Source of the DNA: a virus
DNA length: 62,441 nt
Direction: 5' to 3' (one strand)
IMG/VR virus record: IMGVR_UViG_3300020579_000013
Coordinates: 1 to 62,441 of that record
Positions within the stretch are counted from its first letter, which is position 1. Every line of letters begins with the position of its first letter. Of this stretch, positions 12,828-30,386 are shown piece by piece. Under the pieces are notes generated by a model. The model saw only the letters and a program-made list of their open reading frames with translations. It was not told where the DNA came from and searched no databases. The translations under genes were made by a program, and so were the position numbers.

Positions 12828-14346
12828 TTGCGAACATCTCTAATAAGGCGTTTTGCACGCTCTCTTTTCCTTCGAGCATTTTGTATATCTTTCGTTCCAC
12901 CGGGCAGCCGCATAAATGCACGATCAGGGTCTTGCGGATTTGTCCGGGGCGCGTGACGCGGCCGTTCGCCTGAATGTATGTGTCCAGCGAGACCGTCGGC
13001 GTCCACCACACCACCGTATTTGCCGCGGTAAGTGTAAGTCCATGAGAAAGCACGCCAGGATGAGCAACCAAAACCCTAAGAGGACCACTAGACTGGAACG
13101 CACCAAAAATGCGATTACGCTCACCCAGAGAGGACGCCCCCGTGACTGTTTCACATACTATCCCCTTCGCCGTCAGTAGTCTGGTGAGTTCCGCCGCCGC
13201 GCTTATGTGCTGGACCAGAGTAATGATTTTGCCATCAGCTTCTTCCAGCACCTCAAGCAGAGCGTCCAGGCGGGTGGAGTTGTCAAAATTAAGAACCGTT
13301 CCCGTGGTTGAATAACACCATCCGCTAGCGATTTGTAGCAGCTTTTGCATAACGACACCCGCATTAAGGGCCGAGATCTGCCCGTGCTGGTGCATATGAT
13401 GAGCCGTGTCATAGATCTTTTTGTACGCTACTTGCTGGTCGGGCGTCAATGGACAATCAACAGTCTTGTAACAAGTCTCTGGTAGCTCAGCGATTTCTTT
13501 TCTCAGATATCGGACGCCAGGCTGCATCGCCGCGTAAACCGTATCCAAAGCAGTCGGCCTGGCCACCCATCGAAACTGTGAGTATTGGGTCATAGTCAGT
13601 TCTTTGAAGTGTTTGAAGTACTTCGGTACGGCTTCGGGGCGCAAAAGTTTGATCTGAGAGTAGGCGTCGCACGGTTCGTTCGGGGTCGGAGAACCAGTGA
13701 GCCCCCATACGTACGAGCAACCCGTTACGATTTTGTTCGCAGATTTCCAGCGATCCGTCGTCCCATTTCGAAAGTACGAAAGTTCGTCGATCACGATTGC
13801 GCCGAAAGATTTGCCACATAGCTCTGCCTGTATTGTCTCGATGCCGTCATGGTTGATGATGTAGATGTCAGCGTCCCGCGCGAGCGCTTCGCGCCGTTGC
13901 TTGCGGGAGCCGTGGAGAATCTCAGTCTTGAGATGGGGGAAGTACTTGAAGATCTCTTTGTCCCAAACCTGAGACAGCGTCGACAGCGGCGCAGTCACGA
14001 GGGCATGTTTGATCACGCCTTCCTGAAGGAGAAAATCCAGCGCATAGAGCGCTGCTCGGGTCTTACCGGTTCCGATTTCGGAGAGGATGAATGCCCGAGG
14101 GTTCTGCACCATAAGCGCTGCCGTAACTTCCTGAGCCTCGAACGGAGTATCGCCACACCAGTCATAGCGAGTACGAATAGGACTGGGGATAGAAAAACCC
14201 AGATTACGACCAAGTCGAGTGGTTTCAATGGTGTGCGGGACGACAACTTTATCTCCTAGAATTTTGCAGCCGGGAATGACGTTGTACAGTGCCGGATCGA
14301 ACGGCACCGCGAAGACTTTGTGCTTGGCGCTTACTTGAACAGACAT
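12808..14346 (-). CDS. SNF2-family DNA helicase/translocase
   Basis: A 512-residue superfamily 2 ATPase. Visible motifs are G-T-G-K-T (I), V-T-A-P-L-S-T (Ia), V-I-D-E-L-S (II), L-T-G-S-P (III), a helicase C domain with L-V-A-H-P-G-V-L-S-H-G, and N-G-R-V-T-R-P-G-Q (VI). SNF2-like proteins of this size accompany VRR-NUC, DNA polymerase and primase genes in many phages. The start at 14346 (M-S-V-Q-V) overlaps the preceding microprotein by 16 bases. Confidence 0.87.
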   Translation of the reverse strand: MSVQVSAKHKVFAVPFDPALYNVIPGCKILGDKVVVPHTIETTRLGRNLGFSIPSPIRTRYDWCGDTPFEAQEVTAALMVQNPRAFILSEIGTGKTRAALYALDFLLQEGVIKHALVTAPLSTLSQVWDKEIFKYFPHLKTEILHGSRKQRREALARDADIYIINHDGIETIQAELCGKSFGAIVIDELSYFRNGTTDRWKSANKIVTGCSYVWGLTGSPTPNEPCDAYSQIKLLRPEAVPKYFKHFKELTMTQYSQFRWVARPTALDTVYAAMQPGVRYLRKEIAELPETCYKTVDCPLTPDQQVAYKKIYDTAHHMHQHGQISALNAGVVMQKLLQIASGWCYSTTGTVLNFDNSTRLDALLEVLEEADGKIITLVQHISAAAELTRLLTAKGIVCETVTGASSLGERNRIFGAFQSSGPLRVLVAHPGVLSHGLTLTAANTVVWWTPTVSLDTYIQANGRVTRPGQIRKTLIVHLCGCPVERKIYKMLEGKESVQNALLEMFANANPNT

Positions 14347-14444
14347 AGCTGGCACAGCCAAAAACCAAAGATATCCGATCCAATGGAGTACTCGTAATCC
14401 AGCATCTCACCAAAGGGGAAGTAGTCGCTCAGAGGAAAAGACAT
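14331..14444 (-). CDS. Clamp-motif microprotein (37 aa, tail QLCLFK)
   Basis: A short acidic and aromatic peptide starting M-S-F-P-L-S-D-Y-F and ending F-W-L-C-Q-L-C-L-F-K. The tail fits the DnaN-binding consensus Q-x-x-(L/M)-F. It overlaps its neighbours at both ends, as in a coupled operon. Confidence 0.6.
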   Translation of the reverse strand: MSFPLSDYFPFGEMLDYEYSIGSDIFGFWLCQLCLFK

Positions 14445-14551
14445 GCCTGCGGCCACTCGTTGACTAAGCTTCCGCCGGGGGGATCCTGCATTGTACGCCA
14501 TAAGATCTCGTATTCATCATCAGGCACGAAGTGACTCCAGAACAACCCCAC
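14429..14551 (-). CDS. Clamp-motif microprotein (40 aa, tail QACLFL)
   Basis: The GTG start shares bases with the VRR-NUC stop codon. The protein has an aromatic/acidic core F-W-S-H-F-V-P-D-D-E-Y-E-I-L-W and ends W-P-Q-A-C-L-F-L. A longer frame to 14641 would overlap VRR-NUC and is less likely. Same tail class as the tandem array at 23-27 kb. Confidence 0.6.
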   Translation of the reverse strand: MGLFWSHFVPDDEYEILWRTMQDPPGGSLVNEWPQACLFL

Positions 14552-14856
14552 TATACGAACAGACTTATCTGTGGAATTGACCGTAACCAGTGTTCCAAGG
14601 AAACAATATCGTCTGGAGTTGAGATCTCGAATACCTTGCATCGTGAGTCCTCGATCCTTTGTGCTATTGCCCGCTGCTGCTCGGTGAGTTTTTTACCCGG
14701 TGCCTTGGTCTCAATCGCAAAAGAGCGACCATTGTGACAGCCAAGACAATCCAGGGTTCGCGCACCCATACCTGTCTGCACCGGCCAGAAATGGTAGCAG
14801 CCGTACGCATTCAGCAAGTTCTTCACTTTCACTTTTACCTTGCCTTCCGGCGTCAT
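14551..14856 (-). CDS. VRR-NUC nuclease with a clamp-binding tail
   Basis: A 101-residue PD-(D/E)XK enzyme. V-Q-T-G-M-G-A-R-T-L-D-C-L-G holds the catalytic Asp, F-A-I-E-T-K-A-P-G-K the E-x-K, and L-T-E-Q-Q the trailing helix. VRR-NUC domains cut branched DNA. The C-terminus I-P-Q-I-S-L-F-V is a good beta-clamp pentapeptide, which would place the nuclease at forks. The start at 14856 overlaps the upstream stop by ATGA. Confidence 0.85.
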   Translation of the reverse strand: MTPEGKVKVKVKNLLNAYGCYHFWPVQTGMGARTLDCLGCHNGRSFAIETKAPGKKLTEQQRAIAQRIEDSRCKVFEISTPDDIVSLEHWLRSIPQISLFV

Positions 14857-15512: not shown

Positions 15513-15652
15513 GGCATTATCGCTTCTTGGTGGCCGTTCTTGAGCCGCATGACTTCCATTTGCAACTCAAATAAAGCACTTAGTAGGTTTTGTATGTACT
15601 GCTGCTGGTCGCGGGTCCAGTCAGTGGGCGGCGGTTGCGGTATATAAATCAT
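15509..15652 (-). CDS. Small helical protein (47 aa)
   Basis: A 47-residue frame linked to both neighbours by 4-base overlaps (ATGA upstream, GTGA downstream). It has a Pro-rich start (I-P-Q-P-P-P-T-D-W) and a helix Q-N-L-L-S-A-L-F-E-L-Q-M-E-V-M-R. No family recognised. Confidence 0.55.
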   Translation of the reverse strand: MIYIPQPPPTDWTRDQQQYIQNLLSALFELQMEVMRLKNGHQEAIMP

Positions 15653-15918
15653 GAAAACATCCCGTCTTGCGGATCGTATTTTACGATTCGATGGGATTGG
15701 GTTTTCTTTTGTCTGCGCTTGGTGAGCTCTTTCTCTCGCTGCGCAATGACTTCCTTGATTTGTTGGTGCGTCGTTTCGAGTTTATCTACCCACTCCCCGC
15801 TGCCAACCTCGCGGTAAGAATATGCATTGATCCAGATTGGTTGCCACCACCATTGCTTTACTTGTACGCGGTATCTAGTTTCGGCACCGATAGTTTTAGT
15901 CGTGATGCGGAATTTCAA
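15649..15918 (-). CDS. Clamp-motif small protein (89 aa, tail QDGMFS)
   Basis: Begins at a TTG that shares bases with the upstream stop (TTGA). The N-terminal half is beta-like (F-R-I-T-T-K-T; W-W-W-Q-P-I-W-I-N-A-Y-S-Y), followed by a charged helix and the tail P-Q-D-G-M-F-S. The tail is a weaker match to Q-x-x-(L/M)-F than those of the array. Confidence 0.6.
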   Translation of the reverse strand: MKFRITTKTIGAETRYRVQVKQWWWQPIWINAYSYREVGSGEWVDKLETTHQQIKEVIAQREKELTKRRQKKTQSHRIVKYDPQDGMFS

Positions 15919-16106
15919 AATAATCCCCTCTGTTCTGGTTCGTCGACTGGTCCGTTTCCGGACACTATAGCGGCATTCACGGAAACACTGCCGAGCCAGT
16001 CTCCGCCTTTTTTGTCGTAAATCTTGTGCCCAAGCGGAGTGTGCTCTACAAACTTGCCAGTCGGAAAAATTAGAACTCGACCGTCTACGAGATATACAGT
16101 AATCAT
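15915..16106 (-). CDS. Clamp-motif small protein (63 aa, tail QRGLF)
   Basis: Starts M-I-T-V-Y-L-V-D-G-R-V and is predicted to be mostly beta. The last residues are D-E-P-E-Q-R-G-L-F, so the clamp-type pentapeptide is the exact C-terminus. It overlaps both neighbours by four bases. Confidence 0.62.
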   Translation of the reverse strand: MITVYLVDGRVLIFPTGKFVEHTPLGHKIYDKKGGDWLGSVSVNAAIVSGNGPVDEPEQRGLF

Positions 16107-16441
16107 AGCATCAACATCCTTTGACAGCACTGAATGCCATGAGTACGGACGGTAGGGCCAAATAGCTGCTGGGTCAAGCGCATAAGTTTGCCTTCGAACT
16201 CCAGCTCATCGTCCGGCACGTTCTCTTCGAATTGCGGTAGTGGAGTATAGTAGGCACCGCTCATGTTCTGTGACATTTGGTTTTGATAGGCTTGACCTTG
16301 AGCCTGGCCGGCCATCAGCCCGCCGATAGCCTGGTTTGCTAAGTTGCCGTGCTGGATGGTAGGGGCCGTGCCGCCCTGCGCTAGTCCCGCCCAGCCCTGG
16401 CTGCTCTGCTGAATCGGTTTGGGCTGCCATGGAAATATCAT
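16103..16441 (-). CDS. Gln/Gly-rich hypothetical protein
   Basis: A 112-residue protein with a low-complexity centre (Q-A-Q-G-Q-A-Y-Q-N-Q-M-S-Q-N) and an acidic stretch E-E-N-V-P-D-D-E-L-E-F-E-G-K. Linked by ATGA to the DNA polymerase stop. No family recognised; composition resembles flexible structural or scaffold proteins. Confidence 0.55.
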   Translation of the reverse strand: MIFPWQPKPIQQSSQGWAGLAQGGTAPTIQHGNLANQAIGGLMAGQAQGQAYQNQMSQNMSGAYYTPLPQFEENVPDDELEFEGKLMRLTQQLFGPTVRTHGIQCCQRMLML

Positions 16442-18261
16442 TTCACTTCTCCAAAATTAGCGCCGTAATGGATCTCGACGTCGATGGGGGCATTGGGCAT
16501 CCAGGATAGTGGCGCAGTCATAATGACTCGCGCTTCGCGAACCACTTCCTCAACCCGGCCCACCGGTACAATATAATCCAATTCGTCGTGGACTTGAAGA
16601 GCCGGCCGCAGTTTCAGTTTACGGTGGATCTCCAACATGCAGTGCTTGATGACGATATTGGCGAGCGCTTGGATTATGTTCTCCAGCAGCTTGCCTCCCC
16701 ATATCGATCGCAGCTCGCGGCCGAATAGGTACTGGTAGCCGTCGAAGGTGTTCTCGAGTTTCGGATAGTATAGGAACATGCCATTTGGCAGCTCCACACT
16801 CTCGTGACGAAACGTCAGTGGACCCAATGTTGCCTTGGCGCCGGGGGTAGCCATTATCTCTAACATGGTATCCAGCGTCCGCCATAGTTCCGGGATCTTC
16901 GAGTAGGTGTCCCGATAAATCCCAACCACCTTCGTGGCCTCGCCTAGGTCGACCTTGATGTTCTCTTGAGCTCGGCAGGTTCCAATGTATTTAATTGCCC
17001 CCATACCGTACTGTAGGCCAAGAACAGCGGTCTTAGCGAGGAATCTTTCGCGAGTATCAGCCCTCGAAATCGGCCGGCCATAAAGTCGGCTCGCAAATTG
17101 CGAATAAACGTCCACGCCATCCCTGAAAGCATTAATGAGAGCTTGCTCGTCTGCGAGGCAACAGCAGAGTCGTGCTTCGATCTGGCTAAGGTCGGCACCC
17201 AAGACCACATGTCCTGCTGGCGCGCGAAGTGCGAAGCGAATACGGGACTTATGAGGCTGAGGAAGATTTTGGAGGTTGATCTTTTCGGTTCCTCCATATC
17301 GTCCAGTATGCGCAGCGTAATAAAGAAGTGGGACTCGAAGGCTGCTGGACGTACGTCCCATCTCCAGCAGGCGCGTCGTGCGCGTCTCTTCCAGGGTGGA
17401 TTTAACTCCGGTTCGTGCGGCGCAGAGCGCTGATACGAGCTCGTCGCTTTCGTACTCTTCCACAAAATCTTTCCATGCCTGGTCTGTTTTGGCGAACGCA
17501 TAAGTAGGTTGTCCTGTGGCGGGACTGGTTTTCGTGGGTGGCTCGGCGCCAAAAGACTTGAGAGCCTCGGCGAACCGCTGGTTAGACATCAGGACATCTT
17601 TCGATACAACGGTTGTAACACGCTCCATGAGCGCAGCTTTCTTGGCGACCACCTCTTGGAGATGCTCCGCCAGCAGCGCGACGTCCAATTCGAACTTCGG
17701 CTCCAGGTACATTCGTAGTGTCAGGTCTATGACCTTAAGTTCATCGCGCGGGTAGTCGAGTACTAACTGGTCAAACAGTGCCTTGGTACAGTCGGTGTCG
17801 TTGCAGCAATACTCGGCATATTTGACCAGCTCTTCTCTACTTAAAGAGGCTCTGCTGCGGCCAAACATGTTCGTAACTTCGTCCCCCTTCTCTAATCCCA
17901 GGCCAGCGTACTGCATACAGTTCTTCAACGACGCAGACCCCGTGAAGGGTTTGTATTTCGCCTGAGCCATCAGGCGAGTGTCCAAATATAGGGCAGGAAT
18001 CAGTCCAAAGTGGTGCTGCAAAATCAGACCATCGAATGACATGTTGTGTGCCAAAAGGGCGTGGCGGGAAATGTCGAATTGCTGTAGCCAAGTCCCAGTC
18101 TGCTTCATCGTTCCCGAGAACCATTTGGTGATTCCTCGTAGCTTGACCGACACCAGTATTACTTCGAACCGCGGATCGCGGACGTAGTCCTCGGTGGTCA
18201 TCTTGGATAAGGTGTACTCTGGGCCGTAGAACGACTCAAAGTCCAGTGTGATTATCTCCAT
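16438..18261 (-). CDS. Family A DNA polymerase with 3'-5' exonuclease
   Basis: A 607-residue enzyme. The exonuclease domain opens with I-T-L-D-F-E-S (ExoI) and includes L-L-A-H-N-M-S-F-D (ExoII). The polymerase domain shows motif A G-A-D-L-S-Q-I-E-A-R-L, motif B around K-T-A-V-L-G-L-Q-Y-G-M-G and motif C Q-V-H-D-E-L-D. It replicates the phage genome. No phage clamp is visible, so processivity must come from elsewhere. One TTACAA-type palindrome lies inside this gene (17605-17618). Confidence 0.93.
   Translation of the reverse strand: MEIITLDFESFYGPEYTLSKMTTEDYVRDPRFEVILVSVKLRGITKWFSGTMKQTGTWLQQFDISRHALLAHNMSFDGLILQHHFGLIPALYLDTRLMAQAKYKPFTGSASLKNCMQYAGLGLEKGDEVTNMFGRSRASLSREELVKYAEYCCNDTDCTKALFDQLVLDYPRDELKVIDLTLRMYLEPKFELDVALLAEHLQEVVAKKAALMERVTTVVSKDVLMSNQRFAEALKSFGAEPPTKTSPATGQPTYAFAKTDQAWKDFVEEYESDELVSALCAARTGVKSTLEETRTTRLLEMGRTSSSLRVPLLYYAAHTGRYGGTEKINLQNLPQPHKSRIRFALRAPAGHVVLGADLSQIEARLCCCLADEQALINAFRDGVDVYSQFASRLYGRPISRADTRERFLAKTAVLGLQYGMGAIKYIGTCRAQENIKVDLGEATKVVGIYRDTYSKIPELWRTLDTMLEIMATPGAKATLGPLTFRHESVELPNGMFLYYPKLENTFDGYQYLFGRELRSIWGGKLLENIIQALANIVIKHCMLEIHRKLKLRPALQVHDELDYIVPVGRVEEVVREARVIMTAPLSWMPNAPIDVEIHYGANFGEVK
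17605..17619. promoter_or_regulatory. Operator-like palindrome within the polymerase gene
   Basis: Core TACAACGGTTGTA, read on the minus strand as codons V-T-T-V-V. One of about ten related sites between 17.6 and 29.6 kb. Confidence 0.45.
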
Positions 18262-19230: not shown

Positions 19231-19398
19231 TTACCTACCAAACAAAAAACCCTGTGCTCTAGAGTCACGCAAAGAATCCGTGTCATGGGGCGAGAAAAGA
19301 AAATCTAGCCCGCGTCCGCTGAACTCAAATAAATCCAGGTCCGTGAACCCTGCGCCTCCCCATAAAAACTCCCACTCAGTCAGACCCCTACAAAGCAT
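19231..19398 (-). CDS. Clamp-motif microprotein (55 aa, tail QGFLFGR)
   Basis: The start overlaps the VWA-protein stop. The core is L-T-E-W-E-F-L-W-G-G-A-G-F, followed by acidic and aromatic residues, ending R-A-Q-G-F-L-F-G-R. Both the Trp-rich core and the Q-x-x-L-F tail match the array at 23-27 kb. Confidence 0.65.
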   Translation of the reverse strand: MLCRGLTEWEFLWGGAGFTDLDLFEFSGRGLDFLFSPHDTDSLRDSRAQGFLFGR

Positions 19399-20626
19399 CG
19401 ATGTGTATAGTCTTTCCAAATGGCCCCTCCTGCGGTGTGGTCGCGCACCAGATCACCGGATACCCCGGATCTCTATCGGGGAACGGGCCACACATGTCTG
19501 TGAAGTAGATCAGACAGTCGGGGACAAGACCTTGTTCCTTCACCCACTCGAACGGCGGACGGAAGTCCGTGCCCCCGCCGCCCTTCACCTCTACGTTGTG
19601 CCAGTCAATCTCCTCGTGGATGTTGAACTCTTGGACAGACGCGATGTCAGCGTCGCAGCCTAATAGGATGGTCTGCTCGGGATGACAGGTACGGATGATG
19701 TCCTTGCACTCCCCGCCGAAGCTGTTCATCTCCTTCTGTCCAATACTCCCTGACGTATCCCACACCCACACAATCAGCCTGCACCCGAATGATGCACTGC
19801 GGGGCAGGTACATTCGTTGCTGGGCCAGTCTGCGCCGGTGCGGCCGCTTCCACGTGCTGGTGTCCCGGCTGCTCGATGTTACAACCGTTGTACGCAGGAT
19901 GTCCTGCCACCGGACCTTGGGCTCCAGGAACTCCTCGGCATAGCGCTTGAGGGCCGCAGGCAGCTTCCCACAGGCTTTGGCAGTGTCCAGGGCCGTCTGA
20001 ACCGCCCGCTTCATTTCCGCACTAGACACCTTTCCGGTGTCATAGATATGGACGTCCTGGCCTTTCCCCTTGCCGTTCCCCGGTACGCCGCCACCCGTCA
20101 CCTTCTTGGCGTTCTTCCACAGATCCCGATATACCTCTTCCACGCTCATCTCGCACGTGTACTTCGGGTCCAGCAACCACTCGGGCTCACCCTTTTTGTA
20201 CTTGCCTTGCGGATCGTCGTGGTCAAACCGCTTCATCGCCCCGACCTGGGACTTGACCAGCATGTCATTGATGACATAGTCGGCCGCGATGTTATACAGC
20301 ATCGAGGAGAACGGATTGCCGTCGAACCCGGTGTCTTCATACACCTTGCCGCGCATCATGTGTTCCCACATTGCGTGGCCTACCTCGTGGCACACACCGA
20401 ACACGGCCTCTTCCAGCTTGAGCGTATTCAGGAAGTCCTCGTCTATATAGACAGTCTTGCCGTCGGTCGCCATTGTGGCCGGCATGCCCCCAAACAACTT
20501 CTCGAACTTACCGATGCGGACATCCATGATGTCGAGCAACAGACTCGCGAAGAATGGCACATGCAGAAGCAGTGCCGTCTTCACACCTACAAACATTGGA
20601 TGGTTAGTACCTTGACTTTCAGCCAT
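19388..20626 (-). CDS. VWA-like protein with HExxH metallopeptidase motif (DUF2201/CobT-like)
   Basis: The 412-residue protein has C-H-E-V-G-H at residues 79-84 (zinc peptidase motif) and, in its C-terminal half, W-D-T-S-G-S-I-G at 289-296. The latter is the D-x-S-x-S of a VWA MIDAS metal site. This is the DUF2201 layout that pairs with MoxR/CobS-type AAA+ ATPases. It likely acts as an ATPase-driven chaperone or protease-like machine. A TTACAA palindrome lies inside (19878-19893). Confidence 0.82.
   Translation of the reverse strand: MAESQGTNHPMFVGVKTALLLHVPFFASLLLDIMDVRIGKFEKLFGGMPATMATDGKTVYIDEDFLNTLKLEEAVFGVCHEVGHAMWEHMMRGKVYEDTGFDGNPFSSMLYNIAADYVINDMLVKSQVGAMKRFDHDDPQGKYKKGEPEWLLDPKYTCEMSVEEVYRDLWKNAKKVTGGGVPGNGKGKGQDVHIYDTGKVSSAEMKRAVQTALDTAKACGKLPAALKRYAEEFLEPKVRWQDILRTTVVTSSSRDTSTWKRPHRRRLAQQRMYLPRSASFGCRLIVWVWDTSGSIGQKEMNSFGGECKDIIRTCHPEQTILLGCDADIASVQEFNIHEEIDWHNVEVKGGGGTDFRPPFEWVKEQGLVPDCLIYFTDMCGPFPDRDPGYPVIWCATTPQEGPFGKTIHIDAL
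19878..19893. promoter_or_regulatory. Operator-like palindrome within the VWA gene
   Basis: GTTACAACCGTTGTAC; on the minus strand it encodes R-T-T-V-V-T. Same class as the other TTACAA/TTGTAA sites. Confidence 0.45.
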
Positions 20627-22072: not shown

Positions 22073-23140
22073 TCATGACTTCTTGTCCAGCAGATTCGCC
22101 GCCTCCAACAATGCTTTGTTACCCCGCAGCCATATGCTGAACTGCGGATGCTGCACGATCTGCGGTGTACGCCGCACGGTGTGCCGCAGCGCGCTGGCCT
22201 GGAACTCCTTGCCCATGCGCGACAAGTACTCGAACGCCTGCACCGCAGTTACGCCATCGATGTTATGAGAGATCATTCTCATGGTGGCGTAGCATGCGTC
22301 CGGCTTCTCCGGCACCTTGGTTGTCTTCGGTTGCGCGACTATATCCGCGTAGCTCGGCAGCTCGTCCACCACCCGCAGGTGCGCAATGAACTGAGCAGCC
22401 GCACCTTCACCTATCGCGCCCGCCGCGAACTCGGTGAACATCTCTGTGCTCATGGTGTCCATGTACGGGCTCAGTCTGCATATCGACCGCGGTGTGCAGA
22501 ACGGGCCGGGCTTCTCGGGCACCTTGTCTGCCAGCACTATGTTGGGTAGTGCCTCTGTGAACGATATGATCTGATGCGCAATGTTGTTCTTCTCCATCCA
22601 GTCCACCAGTGCATCCTTGCTCGGCTCGATCTGGATGTCGGCTATTCTGTTCTGAATAAATGCCATTGTCTTACGGGCACCGGAGCGGTCTTGCTCCCGA
22701 TTGCCCGCTGCAACGACAATCCACCCCGGCGGAAGCTGATAGTCGCCCACTCGACGGTCAAGCATGAGCTCTGCTGCCACCTTGTTGACGTCATCGTCCG
22801 CTTGCGGCTGCTCGTCCAAAAATAAGTAGCCATACTCACCATCCTTCTCGATGTCGACTGCCCAGAAGGGCAGACTGAACTCCATCTTGCTCGTGGCGAT
22901 GTTGCCCTCGGGCGGCAGGCCGTAGCCCTTCACGTCCGGTTGCTCCACCTCGCACAGCCGCACCACCTTGCAGCCGACCAACTGTCCTAGCTTCTTGGTT
23001 AGCTCCAGTGCGGCGTCCTTGACGATGGTACTCTTGCCCATGCCTGGGCTCGACAGCAGGCGTACGCACATATACTCCTGCTTCTCGATTGCCACGTTCA
23101 ACATCGTGATCAACAATCGCTTTGCGTCACTGATCTTCAT
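22073..23140 (-). CDS. MoxR/CobS-type AAA+ ATPase
   Basis: The 355-residue protein has Walker A S-S-P-G-M-G-K-S-T near residue 28-36, Walker B Y-L-F-L-D-E-Q-P, and sensor I V-V-A-A-G-N-R-E-Q-D followed by an arginine-rich segment R-S-G-A-R-K. MoxR ATPases work with VWA proteins to remodel or insert cofactors into target complexes. It starts by ATGA overlap with a clamp-motif microprotein, so it is co-translated with that set. Confidence 0.87.
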   Translation of the reverse strand: MKISDAKRLLITMLNVAIEKQEYMCVRLLSSPGMGKSTIVKDAALELTKKLGQLVGCKVVRLCEVEQPDVKGYGLPPEGNIATSKMEFSLPFWAVDIEKDGEYGYLFLDEQPQADDDVNKVAAELMLDRRVGDYQLPPGWIVVAAGNREQDRSGARKTMAFIQNRIADIQIEPSKDALVDWMEKNNIAHQIISFTEALPNIVLADKVPEKPGPFCTPRSICRLSPYMDTMSTEMFTEFAAGAIGEGAAAQFIAHLRVVDELPSYADIVAQPKTTKVPEKPDACYATMRMISHNIDGVTAVQAFEYLSRMGKEFQASALRHTVRRTPQIVQHPQFSIWLRGNKALLEAANLLDKKS

Positions 23141-23298
23141 TCGGGTTCCTCGTTGTTAAATAAATTTGCCTGCCAGGTATGCCAGAAATTAGCGCCATTT
23201 ACAGTGTCGTCGCCCTCTGGCCATCGTGTCTGCTTCTTTCCCTCCGGGCGTGTCATGCACCAATACCACCAGTAGAACTTATACGGTTCATACGCCAT
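23137..23298 (-). CDS. Clamp-motif microprotein (53 aa, QANLF near C-terminus)
   Basis: Starts M-A-Y-E-P-Y-K-F-Y-W-W-Y-W-C, has R-W-P-E-G-D-D, and ends W-H-T-W-Q-A-N-L-F-N-N-E-E-P-E. Very Trp-rich. Coupled to the MoxR ATPase by ATGA. Confidence 0.68.
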   Translation of the reverse strand: MAYEPYKFYWWYWCMTRPEGKKQTRWPEGDDTVNGANFWHTWQANLFNNEEPE

Positions 23299-23389
23299 TA
23301 TTCCACTCCCGTTCGAACAGCATCCACTGTTCCGTCCAGTCGAAACCGTGCCCGGCCTTCCCTAAAGACTCGCGCCAGTCCGTTGGCAT
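23288..23389 (-). CDS. Clamp-motif microprotein (33 aa, QWMLF)
   Basis: A 33-residue peptide with G-F-D-W-T-E-Q-W-M-L-F-E-R-E-W. It overlaps the following gene by 11 bases. It is below usual gene-calling limits, but motif, orientation and overlap agree with the array. Confidence 0.55.
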   Translation of the reverse strand: MPTDWRESLGKAGHGFDWTEQWMLFEREWNNGV

Positions 23390-23438
23390 TAAAATTGTCT
23401 CGTCTGTTGGGATAAACTGGTGCTCTACCAGCCGGTCT

Positions 23439-23894
23439 CTACTTGTCCTCATCGGTCTTGGCGGCTGTCTCCGGCGTGACCAGCACCCCTCTATACTGCG
23501 TGGCCAGGCTGGTCATGGGTTCATATAACTCATCCCTGTGTTCCTTCGCGAACTCCAGTACCTTCCGCGGATCCTCTTCGGACATCGGGAACCCCAACAA
23601 CGCGAACAACGCCGCGACACTCTCACCGAACTCCGCCGCATCTTCCAGCTTCGCGAACACCAGCTTCTGGTTTGTTCCGCTGATGCGAAGACCACTTGCC
23701 TTCATCGACACACAGAACGGACCGTTCTTGCGAGTCTTGTAGATGGGATAATCTTTCTGCCGATAGACAGGCAATGCATGCGCTACTACGTGATCGCCGC
23801 ACGCGATGCCGTCGCCCTCTAGGTACACCTGCTCCGAGTTTGTCGGGGCACCAATCTTGATCTTGAACACTTCAACTTTCTTCTCGCTCGTCAT
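23439..23894 (-). CDS. Conserved-looking hypothetical protein (151 aa)
   Basis: Starts M-T-S-E-K-K-V-E-V-F-K-I-K-I-G. It contains C-G-D-H-V-V-A-H-A-L-P-V-Y and R-K-N-G-P-F-C-V-S-M-K-A-S-G-L-R, then a helical C-terminal half. A longer frame to 23936 would read through the palindrome and lacks support. GGAGAG lies upstream, immediately after an operator-like palindrome, suggesting control of this gene at its 5' leader. No family recognised. Confidence 0.65.
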   Translation of the reverse strand: MTSEKKVEVFKIKIGAPTNSEQVYLEGDGIACGDHVVAHALPVYRQKDYPIYKTRKNGPFCVSMKASGLRISGTNQKLVFAKLEDAAEFGESVAALFALLGFPMSEEDPRKVLEFAKEHRDELYEPMTSLATQYRGVLVTPETAAKTDEDK

Positions 23895-23906
23895 CTGAAC
23901 TCTCCT

Positions 23907-23923
23907 GTTACAACGGTTGTTAC
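23907..23923. promoter_or_regulatory. Operator-like palindrome in the leader of the 151-aa gene
   Basis: GTTACAACGGTTGTTAC, about 13 bases upstream of the start at 23894. It is one of the sites lying outside coding sequence. Confidence 0.55.
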
Positions 23924-24094
23924 TTACTCTCTCCAACTAAACAAGCACAACTGAAATCTTGGGTACCATCTATCACTAAAGTATCCAGTCCAAGGACTTT
24001 CTAGCTCGCCGGCATTATCCCAATCACAATAATTTTCCGGGCTAAACTCCCCAAAACTCAATTCTCCATCTCTACCGAAGCGCTCTATGGCCAT
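23924..24094 (-). CDS. Clamp-motif microprotein (56 aa, QLCLFSWRE)
   Basis: Starts M-A-I-E-R-F-G-R-D-G. The core is N-Y-C-D-W-D-N-A-G-E and P-W-T-G-Y-F-S-D-R-W, and the tail is F-Q-L-C-L-F-S-W-R-E. The start lies inside the upstream gene's last codons. Confidence 0.7.
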   Translation of the reverse strand: MAIERFGRDGELSFGEFSPENYCDWDNAGELESPWTGYFSDRWYPRFQLCLFSWRE

Positions 24095-24267
24095 AAACTC
24101 ACCTGACAAGGGTTGTTGTATTTCTCCCTGTAGAACATCCACCTCCACTCTTGTGTCGCCACATCTAGAGTAATCCACCTCCCGGCCGAAACCTGTATGC
24201 AGTCCGCTCCGCGCGGATATCGGGTGCGGGCAAGACCTTCCGCGTCGAGCGACGGTTTAGTATCCAT
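24085..24267 (-). CDS. Clamp-motif microprotein (60 aa, tail QVSLWP)
   Basis: GAGGAG precedes the ATG. The core T-Q-E-W-R-W-M-F-Y-R-E-K-Y leads to N-P-C-Q-V-S-L-W-P. Trp replaces the terminal Phe of the pentapeptide, an allowed aromatic swap. An imperfect TTACAA-type palindrome overlaps its last codons. Confidence 0.65.
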   Translation of the reverse strand: MDTKPSLDAEGLARTRYPRGADCIQVSAGRWITLDVATQEWRWMFYREKYNNPCQVSLWP

Positions 24268-24280
24268 CTTATAAATCTCC

Positions 24281-24490
24281 TCATGTTGTCTCCCGAAACA
24301 AGCAGTACTGCCGATCATAAGCGGCGCTCCATCGCTCATCGTCGGACCTTATGTCGGTGTACGGTCCATCGAACTTATAACTCTCCAGGAACTCAGGAGA
24401 CCAGCTAAAGATAATATGCCCATCGCCTACTTGCACAGAGTGTCCTTGGTCATATCGGCGCGTGCCGTACCTCCAGTTCCTGTCACTCAC
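24281..24490 (-). CDS. Clamp-motif microprotein (69 aa, QYCLFRETT)
   Basis: GTG start, overlapping the upstream stop. It contains F-S-W-S-P-E-F-L-E-S-Y and D-D-E-R-W-S-A-A-Y-D-R-Q-Y-C-L-F-R-E-T-T. Acidic/aromatic spacing before the pentapeptide matches the 56- and 53-residue members. Confidence 0.68.
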   Translation of the reverse strand: MSDRNWRYGTRRYDQGHSVQVGDGHIIFSWSPEFLESYKFDGPYTDIRSDDERWSAAYDRQYCLFRETT

Positions 24491-24803
24491 GACGTATCAG
24501 TGACAGCACGTTCATCTGCCTCCGCGTGCATTGGTGGCCGGCGAAGTCGGAGAATATGTGCAGTGTCTCGCCGATGAAATATACCCGCATGTCACGCTGA
24601 CAACCCTTACAAGTAATAGTTCTGTCGTGACGCATTATTGTGGTTTGGAGATACGGCGGCCTTTCTGTCTCCTTTAGGTCGTGGCCTTGTCCCTCTACCT
24701 CTTGTACATATTTAGCCAGTTCCTCCTCCGGGTCTTCACCCGGTAGTGTAGTGATTTCGAGTGTGTCGCTATAACTGACGTGGCGCGCAGTCACGATTGC
24801 CAT
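24483..24803 (-). CDS. Zinc-finger small protein of the array
   Basis: A 106-residue acidic protein with a C-terminal zinc site: I-T-C-K-G-C-Q-R-D, F-I-G-E-T-L-H-I-F, G-H-Q-C-T. It ends R-R-Q-M-N-V-L-S-L-I-R-R-E, which resembles but does not match the clamp pentapeptide. It is coupled to its neighbours. Confidence 0.6.
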   Translation of the reverse strand: MAIVTARHVSYSDTLEITTLPGEDPEEELAKYVQEVEGQGHDLKETERPPYLQTTIMRHDRTITCKGCQRDMRVYFIGETLHIFSDFAGHQCTRRQMNVLSLIRRE

Positions 24804-24982
24804 CGCTTAATCGTTGTCCTGGTCGCTCCAGGTTGGGAGAACATCATTGCCTGCACCCGAAGGCAGGGCAGTGATCTGCTGAAGTCTCCTTTGCGGCTGT
24901 AGAATCCCATTTTGCATTCGCAGATGCGGCAGGTCAGCTTTACAAACTTGTGTCCGTCTTCTCTGAGCCATTTGAGTTTCAT
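24791..24982 (-). CDS. Clamp-motif zinc-finger microprotein (63 aa, QAMMF)
   Basis: Starts M-K-L-K-W-L-R-E-D-G-H-K-F. Two Cys pairs (C-R-I-C, then C-K and C-L) suggest zinc binding. The tail V-Q-A-M-M-F-S-Q-P-G-A is followed by a basic end. The same G-(Y/F)-x-x-R-K-G-D-F-S segment before the motif is not seen in the other members. Confidence 0.6.
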   Translation of the reverse strand: MKLKWLREDGHKFVKLTCRICECKMGFYSRKGDFSRSLPCLRVQAMMFSQPGATRTTIKRWQS

Positions 24983-24987
24983 TGTAT

Positions 24988-25188
24988 TTACTCGCTGAAT
25001 AGCATTGCTTGTGCGATTGGACATATCTCTGGCTCCTTTGCAATATAGTTGAAGTTCTTGTCTAGTTGTCCAGTGCCCACATCGAACCACGAGTCACAAG
25101 TGAAGCACCTAAATAACCTGGTGTCTCTGTCGATGTCGCGCAGGTTGTGGAACTGGTTGGCCGCGAGTTGCCATAGGTTGGCGTTCAT
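24988..25188 (-). CDS. Clamp-motif zinc-finger microprotein (66 aa, tail QAMLFSE)
   Basis: ATGA start inside the previous stop. R-C-F-T-C-D-S-W-F-D and E-I-C-P-I-A-Q-A-M-L-F-S-E provide three Cys and the terminal pentapeptide. The longer frame upstream of 25188 is discarded. Confidence 0.67.
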   Translation of the reverse strand: MNANLWQLAANQFHNLRDIDRDTRLFRCFTCDSWFDVGTGQLDKNFNYIAKEPEICPIAQAMLFSE

Positions 25189-25382
25189 GCGAATAGCTGC
25201 CCTTGCATAGACAGATAGAATGGGGATTTTCCTTCGCGAGCGCGAGTCCAGTGCAAACCCAAAGCCTGCCACTCGCAGTAGTCCAGATAGCACCAGGCTT
25301 TAGGTGCTGGTCCGTTTACTGTTGCATAGCAAGCATACGGCGTAACTCCACCGATCCCGCTAATTTTATCGTATTCTCTCAT
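25185..25382 (-). CDS. Clamp-motif microprotein (65 aa, tail QGQLFA)
   Basis: ATGA coupled at both ends. It has W-C-Y-L-D-Y-C-E-W-Q-A-L-G-L-H-W, the clearest copy of the Y-L-D-Y/W-x-x-W core, and ends S-M-Q-G-Q-L-F-A. Confidence 0.72.
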   Translation of the reverse strand: MREYDKISGIGGVTPYACYATVNGPAPKAWCYLDYCEWQALGLHWTRAREGKSPFYLSMQGQLFA

Positions 25383-25516
25383 TGGAACACCATGAGCTGC
25401 ATTGCGTTTCCGAACCAGGTATGACCTCTATTCAGCAAGAAGTCGCCGTGAGTTGGGTTAGTAGCCTTGATTTCTTCCATGTGCAGCCACCTAATCAGAT
25501 CAATACCCTGAATCAT
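25379..25516 (-). CDS. Clamp-motif microprotein (45 aa, tail QLMVFQ)
   Basis: The start at 25516 forms ATGA with the upstream micro-membrane gene; 25567 is a longer alternative that overlaps that gene. Core I-R-W-L-H-M-E-E-I-K; end F-G-N-A-M-Q-L-M-V-F-Q. Confidence 0.65.
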   Translation of the reverse strand: MIQGIDLIRWLHMEEIKATNPTHGDFLLNRGHTWFGNAMQLMVFQ

Positions 25517-25656
25517 TGCAGCAGCATCTGAAGCAGCACACCGAACCCAAAGACCAGAGTCAGCCATAAAATTGTCCTGTGTGTTTTAATACTCATCAAA
25601 CAGATCCTCCTGTTGGTGTATGTATTTGGCAGATCTTGCAGTTGTTCTTCGCTCAT
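25513..25656 (-). CDS. Small membrane protein in the array
   Basis: A 47-residue frame starting by ATGA at 25656 (M-S-E-E-Q-L-Q-D-L) or, with a better AGGAGG site, a 27-residue frame from 25596 (M-S-I-K-T-H-R). The C-terminal half W-L-T-L-V-F-G-F-G-V-L-L-Q-M-L-L is a transmembrane helix. It is coupled to the next gene by ATGA. Confidence 0.5.
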   Translation of the reverse strand: MSEEQLQDLPNTYTNRRICLMSIKTHRTILWLTLVFGFGVLLQMLLQ

Positions 25657-25798
25657 GCGAATAGGTTGCATTGCTCTGTTCTCCATGCATGTGAAATGTT
25701 ACTGCTGCTTGCTCTACGCCACCCTGCGTAGTCCAGCCAGCCGTATAAAGAAAATCTATCGTCCCCATCGCGAGCCGCACAGGCGTTGGGTGGGACAT
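25586..25798 (-). CDS. Alternative overlapping frame ending QEDLFDEY
   Basis: A third-frame ORF overlaps the 65- and 47-residue genes. Its end, H-Q-Q-E-D-L-F-D-E-Y, fits the clamp consensus well, but its N-terminal part copies no family pattern. A shorter version from an ATG near 25690 would encode about 34 residues. It may be a real overlapping gene or a coincidence. Confidence 0.3.
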   Translation of the reverse strand: MSHPTPVRLAMGTIDFLYTAGWTTQGGVEQAAVTFHMHGEQSNATYSHERRTTARSAKYIHQQEDLFDEY

Positions 25799-25850
25799 GC
25801 GGTGTAGACCATCTCTCTGTGCCGTCGATCGGTTTATAAGTGAGTTTCAT
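25653..25850 (-). CDS. Clamp-motif microprotein (65 aa, tail QCNLFA)
   Basis: Starts M-K-L-T-Y-K-P-I-D-G-T-E-R-W. The core L-Y-G-W-L-D-Y-A-G-W-R-R is a close copy of the 25185-25382 core, and it ends W-R-T-E-Q-C-N-L-F-A. The similar core and tail suggest duplication. Confidence 0.72.
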   Translation of the reverse strand: MKLTYKPIDGTERWSTPHVPPNACAARDGDDRFSLYGWLDYAGWRRASSSNISHAWRTEQCNLFA

Positions 25851-25956
25851 ACAAACAACCCCATCTGTGTGTGTGCGTATATGGATCTTGCTCGTGTCCA
25901 CGCGTAATATACCAACCTGGAAACAGCAATTCATCCCAAAAGAAATGGCACCTCAT
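25834..25956 (-). CDS. Divergent array member without the clamp tail (40 aa)
   Basis: GGAGG precedes the ATG. It has H-F-F-W-D-E-L-L-F-P-G-W-Y-I, resembling the Trp core, but ends C-L-Y-E-T-H-L without a Q-x-x-L-F. Possibly a member that lost its tail through overlap with the next gene. Confidence 0.45.
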   Translation of the reverse strand: MRCHFFWDELLFPGWYITRGHEQDPYTHTHRWGCLYETHL

Positions 25957-25974
25957 GACCTACCTCCAACTATT

Positions 25975-25990
25975 TTACAACGGTTGTAAC
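25975..25990. promoter_or_regulatory. Operator-like palindrome at a gene end
   Basis: TTACAACGGTTGTAAC overlaps the stop of the 84-residue gene; on the minus strand TTACAACCGTTGTAA encodes L-Q-P-L-stop. Confidence 0.55.
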
Positions 25991-26229
25991 AATGCCGACT
26001 CGCGCAGATACAACGCGCAGTCACGAAAGTTCAGGGATCGAACGGAGCGCGCTGCTCGTCGTGCTGCAGCAGAAATTGTCGACACCTGGAACAACGACAT
26101 ACACTGCGCCCTACCCAAAACCCTGACGCCTTTGGTTTGGTTCACTTGCCAGAAATACTCTGACGAATACTCATGGGATCCTCGCTGTGGTGTTGTGTCT
26201 ATGTGGGCATGCAAACGCGGTCGCCTCAC
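25975..26229 (-). CDS. Hypothetical basic protein (84 aa)
   Basis: GTG start overlapping the upstream stop (GTGA). Contains Y-S-S-E-Y-F-W-Q-V-N-Q-T-K and an internal Q-C-M-S-L-F, then a basic helical tail R-R-A-A-R-S-V-R-S. Its last codons are formed by the operator-like palindrome. Coding status is moderate. Confidence 0.45.
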   Translation of the reverse strand: MRRPRLHAHIDTTPQRGSHEYSSEYFWQVNQTKGVRVLGRAQCMSLFQVSTISAAARRAARSVRSLNFRDCALYLRESALLQPL

Positions 26230-26270
26230 TCAAACGCACAAGCCTGAATAGTGAACACGTCTACATCCAT
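26226..26270 (-). pseudogene. Possible remnant of a clamp-motif microprotein
   Basis: The frame begins at an ATGA overlap (ATG at about 26318), meets TGA after two codons, then stays open through G-H-L-K-Y-M-D-V-D-V-F to the end T-I-Q-A-C-A-F-E. An ATG at 26270 could still make a 14-residue peptide. The degraded Q-A-C-A-F tail and in-frame stop suggest a decaying copy. Confidence 0.4.
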
Positions 26271-26314
26271 ATACTTCAAGTGCCCGAACCGAGCCTCGAC
26301 CCTCGACCCTCACT

Positions 26315-26581
26315 TCATCGTCGCGGCCTGCGGCCGTCGCCTGCCACAACACTTAGCGGGAGTGCTTTATACTCAGCCCGCCGCGCAGCAGCGATCTTCC
26401 CATCGCATCTGGCATCCGGGTTGAATTTTTTATAGATGGCGATCTTGCGTCTGGTCTTGCGGGCTATCACGCTCGGATAGTCTTTGACCTCGCCGCATCC
26501 AATACACTGCATGCCCCCGCCAAGATGTCGATGCATCGTGTCGGTTGCACATGTCTCACAAGGCTGGTTGGATAGTTTCAT
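26315..26581 (-). CDS. Zinc-ribbon small protein (88 aa)
   Basis: Starts by ATGA overlap. C-E-T-C-A-T and C-I-G-C-G-E form a zinc ribbon, followed by a basic helical part R-K-T-R-R-K-I-A-I-Y-K-K. Likely nucleic-acid-binding. No clamp tail. Confidence 0.62.
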   Translation of the reverse strand: MKLSNQPCETCATDTMHRHLGGGMQCIGCGEVKDYPSVIARKTRRKIAIYKKFNPDARCDGKIAAARRAEYKALPLSVVAGDGRRPRR

Positions 26582-26739
26582 TGTATGCCTCTACGTACGC
26601 AAGCTAACCATATTCTTCGTCTCTCCAAGATTTCCCAGTCTGAGAACAGGCAGTGCTGATACCGCTCATCTTGGTCGAGCGGTGTAGTTCTGCGGTACCA
26701 TATCCTCAGTGTCGTCCAATCAAGATACATGTAGTTCAT
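26578..26739 (-). CDS. Clamp-motif microprotein (53 aa, QHCLF)
   Basis: M-N-Y-M-Y-L-D-W-T-T-L-R-I-W, then D-E-R-Y-Q-H-C-L-F-S-D-W-E and a basic extension. ATGA-coupled on both sides. It shows both shared elements in the same order and spacing as its neighbours. Confidence 0.72.
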   Translation of the reverse strand: MNYMYLDWTTLRIWYRRTTPLDQDERYQHCLFSDWEILERRRIWLACVRRGIQ

Positions 26740-26852
26740 TCGTCACTCCCGAATAAACACAGTTGCATATGCCAGGACTTGCACCACGTGCCTGAGTTGG
26801 CCCAGTTGTTGCGGTCGTACCAGTCCAGGTATAGGAAGAGTGCTCTAATCAT
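26736..26852 (-). CDS. Clamp-motif microprotein (38 aa, QLCLFGSDE)
   Basis: The most compact member: M-I-R-A-L-F-L-Y-L-D-W-Y-D-R-N-N-W, then S-W-H-M-Q-L-C-L-F-G-S-D-E. ATGA overlaps at both ends. Confidence 0.72.
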   Translation of the reverse strand: MIRALFLYLDWYDRNNWANSGTWCKSWHMQLCLFGSDE

Positions 26853-27031
26853 ACACTCACCTTGTAGATTTCACTTATCTTCTCAATCGTCTTTCGCGGC
26901 CACTCTTCCGGTCCGACGAACAACATTGCCTGCAAGCTGCAACCCTCGCCTTTGTCGGTACATTCTGCCGCTTTGGCTTTATAGAACTCATCCCACGGCA
27001 ACCAAAATCCTTCACGTAGCCTACCAACCAT
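26849..27031 (-). CDS. Clamp-motif microprotein (60 aa, QAMLF)
   Basis: AAGGAG precedes the ATG. F-W-L-P-W-D-E-F-Y-K, then C-S-L-Q-A-M-L-F-V-G-P-E-E-W and a 15-residue basic tail. Confidence 0.72.
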   Translation of the reverse strand: MVGRLREGFWLPWDEFYKAKAAECTDKGEGCSLQAMLFVGPEEWPRKTIEKISEIYKVSV

Positions 27032-27041
27032 GATTGTCTCC

Positions 27042-27230
27042 TTACTCAAACATGCTGAACTGCATTGTGTCCCAAGAGTTGTCGTTGGTGTACGCAGGAT
27101 GATACGCGTCGTCGAACACAACTCGCCACTCAAACACATCCAACCATCCACATTGGTAGCAAGCAGCATCACCTATATTGTGATCGCCTATCCGGTGATT
27201 TTTTCGTCGCTTCGGTCGCGCAGTCATCAT
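27042..27230 (-). CDS. Clamp-motif microprotein (62 aa, tail QFSMFE)
   Basis: Basic N-terminus (R-P-K-R-R-K-N-H-R), core C-G-W-L-D-V-F-E-W-R, end S-W-D-T-M-Q-F-S-M-F-E. The start forms an ATGATGA overlap with the upstream gene. Confidence 0.72.
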   Translation of the reverse strand: MMTARPKRRKNHRIGDHNIGDAACYQCGWLDVFEWRVVFDDAYHPAYTNDNSWDTMQFSMFE

Positions 27231-27388
27231 TGCCGGTACCATGGCGGCATCTCGTCTGGAAATAAACAGATTTGTGCCGAGTATATACGCAGACCTTCAC
27301 TCTGCAATGCATCCCACTCAAGCCAGCACAGAAAGACCGCACCGGCGCTTGCCTTTACTTTCGCTACGTATTCGCTTAAGGCATCCAT
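27227..27388 (-). CDS. Clamp-motif microprotein (53 aa, QICLF)
   Basis: First member of the main tandem run. M-D-A-L-S-E-Y-V-A-K-V-K, then F-L-C-W-L-E-W-D-A-L and S-A-Q-I-C-L-F-P-D-E-M. GAGG lies upstream. Confidence 0.72.
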   Translation of the reverse strand: MDALSEYVAKVKASAGAVFLCWLEWDALQSEGLRIYSAQICLFPDEMPPWYRQ

Positions 27389-29766: not shown

Positions 29767-30009
29767 ATGCCTAAATTCCCTCTTGTCCAAATCTCCTGGC
29801 ACGACGCATGGTCAGACTCCGGCTGGAAGAGTCCTGGAGAAATTTCAAACCTATGCATCCCGCTCGTCATCCATTCGGTTGGCTTCCTGGTCAAAACGAC
29901 ACGTAGTGGATATTTGATCGCAGGTTCGGTGGACGCGAACGGCCTTGTTGGCTCGGTGATGTTCCGTCCGCGCGGCATGGTCAAGTCGATGAAGCGCATA
30001 TACCTATGA
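29767..30009 (+). CDS. Conserved small phage protein (80 aa)
   Basis: Starts M-P-K-F-P-L-V-Q-I-S-W-H-D-A-W, a form common in small early phage proteins, with F-L-V-K-T-T-R-S-G-Y-L-I-A-G and F-R-P-R-G-M-V-K. Function unknown. First gene of the rightward early block; ATGA to the next. Confidence 0.68.
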   Translation: MPKFPLVQISWHDAWSDSGWKSPGEISNLCIPLVIHSVGFLVKTTRSGYLIAGSVDANGLVGSVMFRPRGMVKSMKRIYL

Positions 30010-30386
30010 GATTCTCCCGTCCTCCGATCGGCACCGTCCGCAAGCGGTTTGCCTGGTGGCCTAAGCATGCTACGGTGATCAGTGGAAAATATGTCCCCGA
30101 GAAAAATGCCACTATGGTTCCGTTTTTCTGGGGGTTTCACAACCCCGGCCCCGCCGCATTCCCGTACTCGGCGCCCAGAAAAAACAAAAAACCCCCGACC
30201 AGCGGTACCGTGTTGGCGCCGGTGATGTATGTGCAGAATTCCTGGCTGGACGGCTGGATCTGGCTCGAGTGGTACGTCGAGGAGCTGGAGGCGAGCTACC
30301 GCGGCGTCGGCGGAGAGACGAGTATTACGGTCTGGCGGATGAAGCCGCCGACCAAGCAGTGGAATGCATTTCATGAATACGATTAG
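30006..30386 (+). CDS. Hypothetical early protein (126 aa)
   Basis: Basic N-terminus; W-P-K-H-A-T-V-I-S-G-K-Y-V-P and S-W-L-D-G-W-I-W-L-E-W-Y-V-E-E-L are Trp-rich. It ends K-Q-W-N-A-F-H-E-Y-D, a degenerate Q-x-x-x-F tail. No family recognised. Confidence 0.6.
   Translation: MRFSRPPIGTVRKRFAWWPKHATVISGKYVPEKNATMVPFFWGFHNPGPAAFPYSAPRKNKKPPTSGTVLAPVMYVQNSWLDGWIWLEWYVEELEASYRGVGGETSITVWRMKPPTKQWNAFHEYD

Follow-up and report, generated by a model that had tools for sequence, protein, structure and literature searches.

Architecture of the microprotein array

The window analysed here is the whole 62,441-nucleotide (nt) viral record IMGVR_UViG_3300020579_000013, which carries between positions 23137 and 27388 a tandem array of minus-strand genes for very small proteins, most of them ending in or near a pentapeptide of the form Q-x-x-[LMV]-[FW] (the tail). 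The array adjoins the untailed gene of a MoxR-type AAA+ ATPase (22073..23140, minus strand). Reading leftward, the tailed genes begin with microproteins of 53 amino acids (aa; 27227..27388, QICLF, core CWLEW), 66 aa (27042..27242, QFSMF, core GWLDVFEW), 60 aa (26849..27031, QAMLF, core FWLPWDEF, start refined), 38 aa (26736..26852, QLCLF, with QHCLF in the homologue from relative L010) and 53 aa (26578..26739, QHCLF). These are followed by microproteins of 65 aa (25653..25850, QCNLF, core GWLDYAGW, start refined; QGNLF in the L011 homologue), 62 aa (25379..25567, QLMVF) and 65 aa (25185..25382, QGQLF, core CYLDYCEW), and by two CxxC proteins, one of 66 aa (24988..25188, QAMLF; QAMMF in the L009 homologue) and one of 63 aa (24791..24982) in which QAMMF stands 20 residues from the end. 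The remainder of the array includes microproteins of 69 aa (24281..24490, QYCLF, likewise QYCLF in the L009 and L011 homologues), 60 aa (24085..24267, QVSLW, start refined), 56 aa (23924..24094, QLCLF, start refined), 54 aa (23288..23452, QWMLF) and 53 aa (23137..23298, QANLF), the last belonging to a family of four aligned rows with an invariant Q.NLF.NE. Pfam and PHROG scans of sampled microproteins returned no usable family, and the fold model of the 23137 family (mean pLDDT 57.5) was too poor to use.

An earlier note on this DNA, made from the letters alone, had listed 21 such pentapeptides as one battery within the array. All 21 are present on the minus strand; 15 of them lie inside 23137-27388 and six outside it, between 14331 and 19419. 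Two of the array examples, QHCLF in 26578..26739 and QAMLF in 26849..27031, sit 26 and 27 residues from the protein end, respectively, and are not really terminal. The same note had most genes joined by ATGA overlaps, which applies to about a third: six of the 19 junctions inside the array are exact ATGA overlaps, and most of the others are overlaps of 8-17 nt or gaps of 5-29 nt, with one further exact ATGA overlap joining the array to the ATPase gene. The shared W-L-x core that it described is real but weaker than the tail, W-L-x-[WYH] occurring in 13 of 255 open reading frames (ORFs) compared with a shuffle mean of 2.6 and maximum of 8.

Evidence that the tail is a selected peptide

The array was taken as 20 genes whose starts were adjusted manually on the sequence, an adjustment made with the tails already known and thus open to bias in gene choice; one of the 20 models (25516-25656) ends three bases before its stop. 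Longest-first gene picking on both strands was too crude, recovering five of 12 genes. Within this set the tail lies in the last 20 residues of 13 of the 20 proteins (mean 0.19, maximum 3, over 20,000 shuffles of the same proteins) and in the last 30 residues of 15 (shuffle mean 0.30, maximum 4). When three- and four-residue patterns were counted in every ORF without reference to a motif, Q..LF came first in the window, with 15 ORFs against 1.97 expected. When the first position of x..[LMV][FW] was swapped through all residues within the last 20, over the window and the three relatives described below, Q gave 72 ORFs, a count that still includes alternative-frame mimics, and every other residue gave at most four; the opposite strand gave three ORFs for the Q form.

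Searches with the ATPase recovered three close relatives, G001 (84% identical), G002 (67%) and G003 (69%; 61.8 kb), all of which carry the same kind of array. In G003, the sole relative recovered with the DNA polymerase as query, Q..LF is again the top-ranked pattern (16 ORFs, 1.91 expected). The window and these three form the four main tail-bearing records, all of them related to one another, and together they hold 66 tails once mimics are removed, namely ORFs read in other frames of the polymerase, ATPase and RecB-like genes (17837, 22642 and 14711 in the window; 15663 in L011) and two further doubtful ORFs. These 66 tails are encoded by 65 distinct 15-mers, and codon use inside the motif resembles that in the rest of the genes, which places selection at the level of the peptide and not of the DNA.

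It is scarcely credible, then, that the motif arose by chance or merely reflects a DNA or RNA signal where genes meet. In favour of such a signal, the gene overlaps are tight and the ends of genes therefore contain start signals as well; the diversity of the coding 15-mers nevertheless rules out a DNA-level signal, and the ordinary codon use effectively refutes it. Chance is ruled out by the shuffles, which reach at most four proteins against the 15 observed, by the residue-swapped and opposite-strand controls, both near zero, and by the motif-blind pattern counts. The tail is real, and the case for it is stronger than first described.

Conservation and spread of the tail within one clade

Conservation of the tails in related phages, on which the earlier note had staked its claim, holds up: true homologues within the clade nearly always keep the tail. 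In homologous tail-bearing pairs with aligned tails, Q, position 4 and position 5 were kept in 30 of 30, compared with 42% identity elsewhere, a figure biased upward because the pairs were chosen for having tails. A search for homologues using the protein bodies only found the tail kept in 24 of 42 best hits and lacking in 18, the latter on inspection being mostly wrong-frame, chance or overlapping-frame matches. One seeming loss, in the G001 homologue of 23137-23298, reads WQANLF in the correct frame. The clear exceptions are one weak G001 match and the window gene 30006-30386 (plus strand), a homologue of the tailed proteins L009:2410-2925 and L011:386-781 (QWNLW); the window copy has QWNAF, so that its position 4 has apparently decayed or changed. 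Three more clear tails were found near one contig end in G007, a record reached through the capsid protein.

Further out the array is missing from the more distant relatives checked (ATPase about 50% identical or less), and no tail enrichment was detected in G015 (51% ATPase identity), G013, G021, G022, G017, RHph_TM3_14A or Pseudomonas phage KPP25. Two scans of cellular genomes, which could have pointed to a host, returned no relatives. Rhizobium phage RHph_TM3_14A (MN988472) resembles the window in its ATPase, metallopeptidase, Pol I, RecB, VRR-NUC and SNF2 genes and in having numerous small genes on the upstream side of the ATPase gene, but its small proteins lack Q-x-x-L-F tails and share instead the motif AMLLG, mostly near the N-terminus.

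The six pentapeptides outside the array (all minus strand) comprise QLCLF and QACLF on two microproteins (14331..14501 and 14429..14641), QISLF on a VRR-NUC-like nuclease (14551..14856, start refined), two weaker cases, QDGMF (15649..15918) and QRGLF at the extreme end of 15915..16130, and QGFLF on a small ORF (19231..19419) that may be chance. The nuclease has a core, P.G.D..ETK.GK, conserved across 35 sequences of which one is annotated VRR-NUC; it matches the PHROG 93 endonuclease (E=1.2e-11), with many phage homologues, and Pfam VRR_NUC below the cut-off (E=0.0027). Aligned ends of two clade members read WLRSIP-QISLFV and WLRLEP-QVCVFS, the tail extending past the domain, and the non-clade homologues stop at or near the domain end or bear other extensions; among those listed, none ends in the tail motif. 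With no tailed nuclease among the non-clade homologues listed and no enrichment in the distant phages, the tail has spread inside a single clade, where at least one protein with an unrelated fold gained it; it is a portable add-on.

The nuclease also bears on whether the small proteins are all paralogues with a common fold, in which Q-x-x-L-F would belong to the hydrophobic core and not be a docking peptide. Many members do share the W-L-x-[WYH] core, several are homologous to each other, and a low-confidence model of one microprotein family places a helix across the tail region. However, the tail is also found on the nuclease and on CxxC proteins that lack this core, and it stands at the extreme end of the proteins, usually followed by one to four further residues, all of which makes a common fold an improbable explanation.

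Candidate partners and the beta sliding clamp

The canonical motif by which bacterial proteins bind the beta sliding clamp is Q-aliphatic-x-[L/M]-[F/L], strongest as QLxLF, with the consensus QL[S/D]LF in Pol II, Pol IV, Pol III alpha and Hda; some known motifs are C-terminal, their flanks are mostly negative, position 2 is described as tolerant, and overexpressed MGPRQLDLF inhibits Escherichia coli growth (PMC11139829). The tails agree with it in the near-exclusive Q at position 1, in the fourth residue, mainly L or M (59 and 7 ORFs, with V in 6), and in the F that prevails at position 5 (F 60, W 12, L 5 in the ORF scan), as well as in being short, often C-terminal and gained by unrelated proteins. 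Most commonly Q lies six residues from the end, leaving one residue past the motif (29 of 66). Acidic residues make up 28% and basic ones 11% of what follows the motif, compared with 11% and 12% in the protein bodies, which resembles the acidic flank of known motifs. On balance we consider it probable that these C-terminal peptides serve for docking on the clamp. The earlier note saw no clamp in the phage, and the record indeed has no match to the DnaN-type domains PF00712 or PF02768, which makes host DnaN the likely partner.

Several features weigh against docking on DnaN. Position 2 is aliphatic in 26 of the 66 tails and aromatic, often Trp or Tyr, in 23; position 3 is C, M, N or S in 53, a position that is variable in known clamp motifs; and the strict form Q[AVLIM]x[LM]F accounts for only 19. 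At position 5 Leu is allowed in known motifs but is not enriched here, and Trp, which weakens binding by the motif of E. coli Pol III alpha (PMC11139829), occurs in 10 of 66. It is also unexplained why one phage would need 20-30 different ligands, a number of tailed small proteins in a single virus that itself differs from known uses of the motif. What stands of the clamp-type assignment made in the earlier note is a protein-level, clade-conserved C-terminal motif of the clamp-binding type, with preferences that deviate from the canonical ones; the displacement of host polymerase, MutS/L or Hda and the tethering at forks that the note proposed are conjectural.

These deviations leave room for partners other than the clamp. 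C-terminal tags are common handles for protease adaptors, localisation factors and the like, and the tail could be a localisation or stability tag that binds another host hub, such as a protease adaptor, a localisation factor or a replication or transcription protein. The Trp- and Cys-rich preferences, unlike those of E. coli clamp ligands, would suit such a hub, but no bacterial hub besides the clamp is known to us to recognise Q-x-x-L-F, and we regard this as unlikely.

The main specific rival to docking on DnaN is encoded by the phage itself. An untailed orphan of 151 aa (23439..23894, minus strand) lies inside the array. Each of the four tail-bearing records has it, none of the other records searched does, and its identity to the three relatives' copies is 81-82%, with most of its neighbours far less alike. 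The tail could be an address label that only a hub made by the phage reads; this orphan is the most plausible such hub and would gather the tailed proteins in one complex or place, and the departure of the motif from canonical clamp motifs is consistent with such a role. Co-occurrence in four related records nevertheless proves little, the orphan has no family or solved-structure match and an unusable fold model (mean pLDDT 41.6), and the agreement of Q, L and F with the clamp motif would have to be coincidence; we rate a phage hub as unlikely.

If the tails do dock on DnaN, the phage would have added one docking peptide to many small, mostly unrelated proteins, and dozens of weak to moderate clamp ligands made together in infection would occupy the pocket in which DnaN binds peptides. 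Clamp clients of the host, among them Pol III and repair proteins, could thereby be pushed aside, and the phage family A DNA polymerase (16438..18261, minus strand), which lacks the motif, would be unaffected. The DNA-bound clamp might also act as a landing pad for effectors, for example the tailed nuclease and the CxxC proteins; we rank neither competition nor tethering above the other. More broadly, one recognition peptide on 20-30 unrelated small proteins might saturate a single hub, be it the host clamp or the phage orphan, or make a docking platform, and other lineages may use a peptide of their own, a generalisation we put forward tentatively and as conceivable rather than probable.

Partial precedents exist. 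Transposases carry C-terminal clamp motifs of seemingly independent origin many times over (PMC4549789) and, as here, are mobile-element proteins of different families with Q-L-x-L-F-like ends that bind the host clamp; each element, however, has one transposase, whereas here one virus tags many small proteins. Phage T4 gp33, gp55 and gp43 share a C-terminal clamp-binding motif (PMC2988020) and so are several proteins of one phage with one interchangeable motif, but they number only three, use the phage's own clamp gp45 and have different motif letters. The phage DnaN inhibitors Twort gp168 and G1 gp240 likewise target the clamp of the host to halt its replication, but they are single proteins (PMC3594737), and gp168 occupies the DNA channel of the clamp (PMC11139829) without use of the peptide pocket. 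Single phage proteins that hit DnaN are known; of a whole set of different small proteins with one docking tail in common, no report was found in the open PMC papers searched. Should the tails bind the clamp, they would constitute a natural, phage-selected library of clamp ligands, useful in finding clamp inhibitors, and would offer insight into how host replication is stopped while the phage polymerase runs. They also offer a way into the function of uncharacterised phage microproteins, as a short peptide bait could fish out the partner.

Repeated short motifs of other kinds occur in other records. Small proteins from the matching region of L014 (RHph_TM3_14A) carry A-M-L-L-G, which in L018 is L-M-G; Tyr and a stretch resembling D-A-D-T-[LM]-x-P often come next, and these proteins of L014 and L018 are perhaps a different paralogous microprotein family. 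Four adjacent small proteins of G015 (37559-39404, minus strand; L250) have M-x-x-G-T-[AE]-A-[ES] close to their ends, which may be a further tail shared within one lineage, though in few copies. V-T-x-x-G-N is repeated in 13 ORFs of L022 and 11 of L014, with about 0.1 expected, and resembles repeat proteins. In the window itself a palindrome close to TTACAAC(C/G)GTTGTAA occurs at eight places with at most two mismatches (17605, 19880, 21793, 23908, 25976, 27439, 29483 and 29617), giving 15 hits on both strands against 0.37 expected from shuffling, and similar palindromes recur in the relatives L009, L010 and L011. Within the microprotein arrays several copies lie a short way upstream of the start of a gene, which makes the palindrome a candidate operator.

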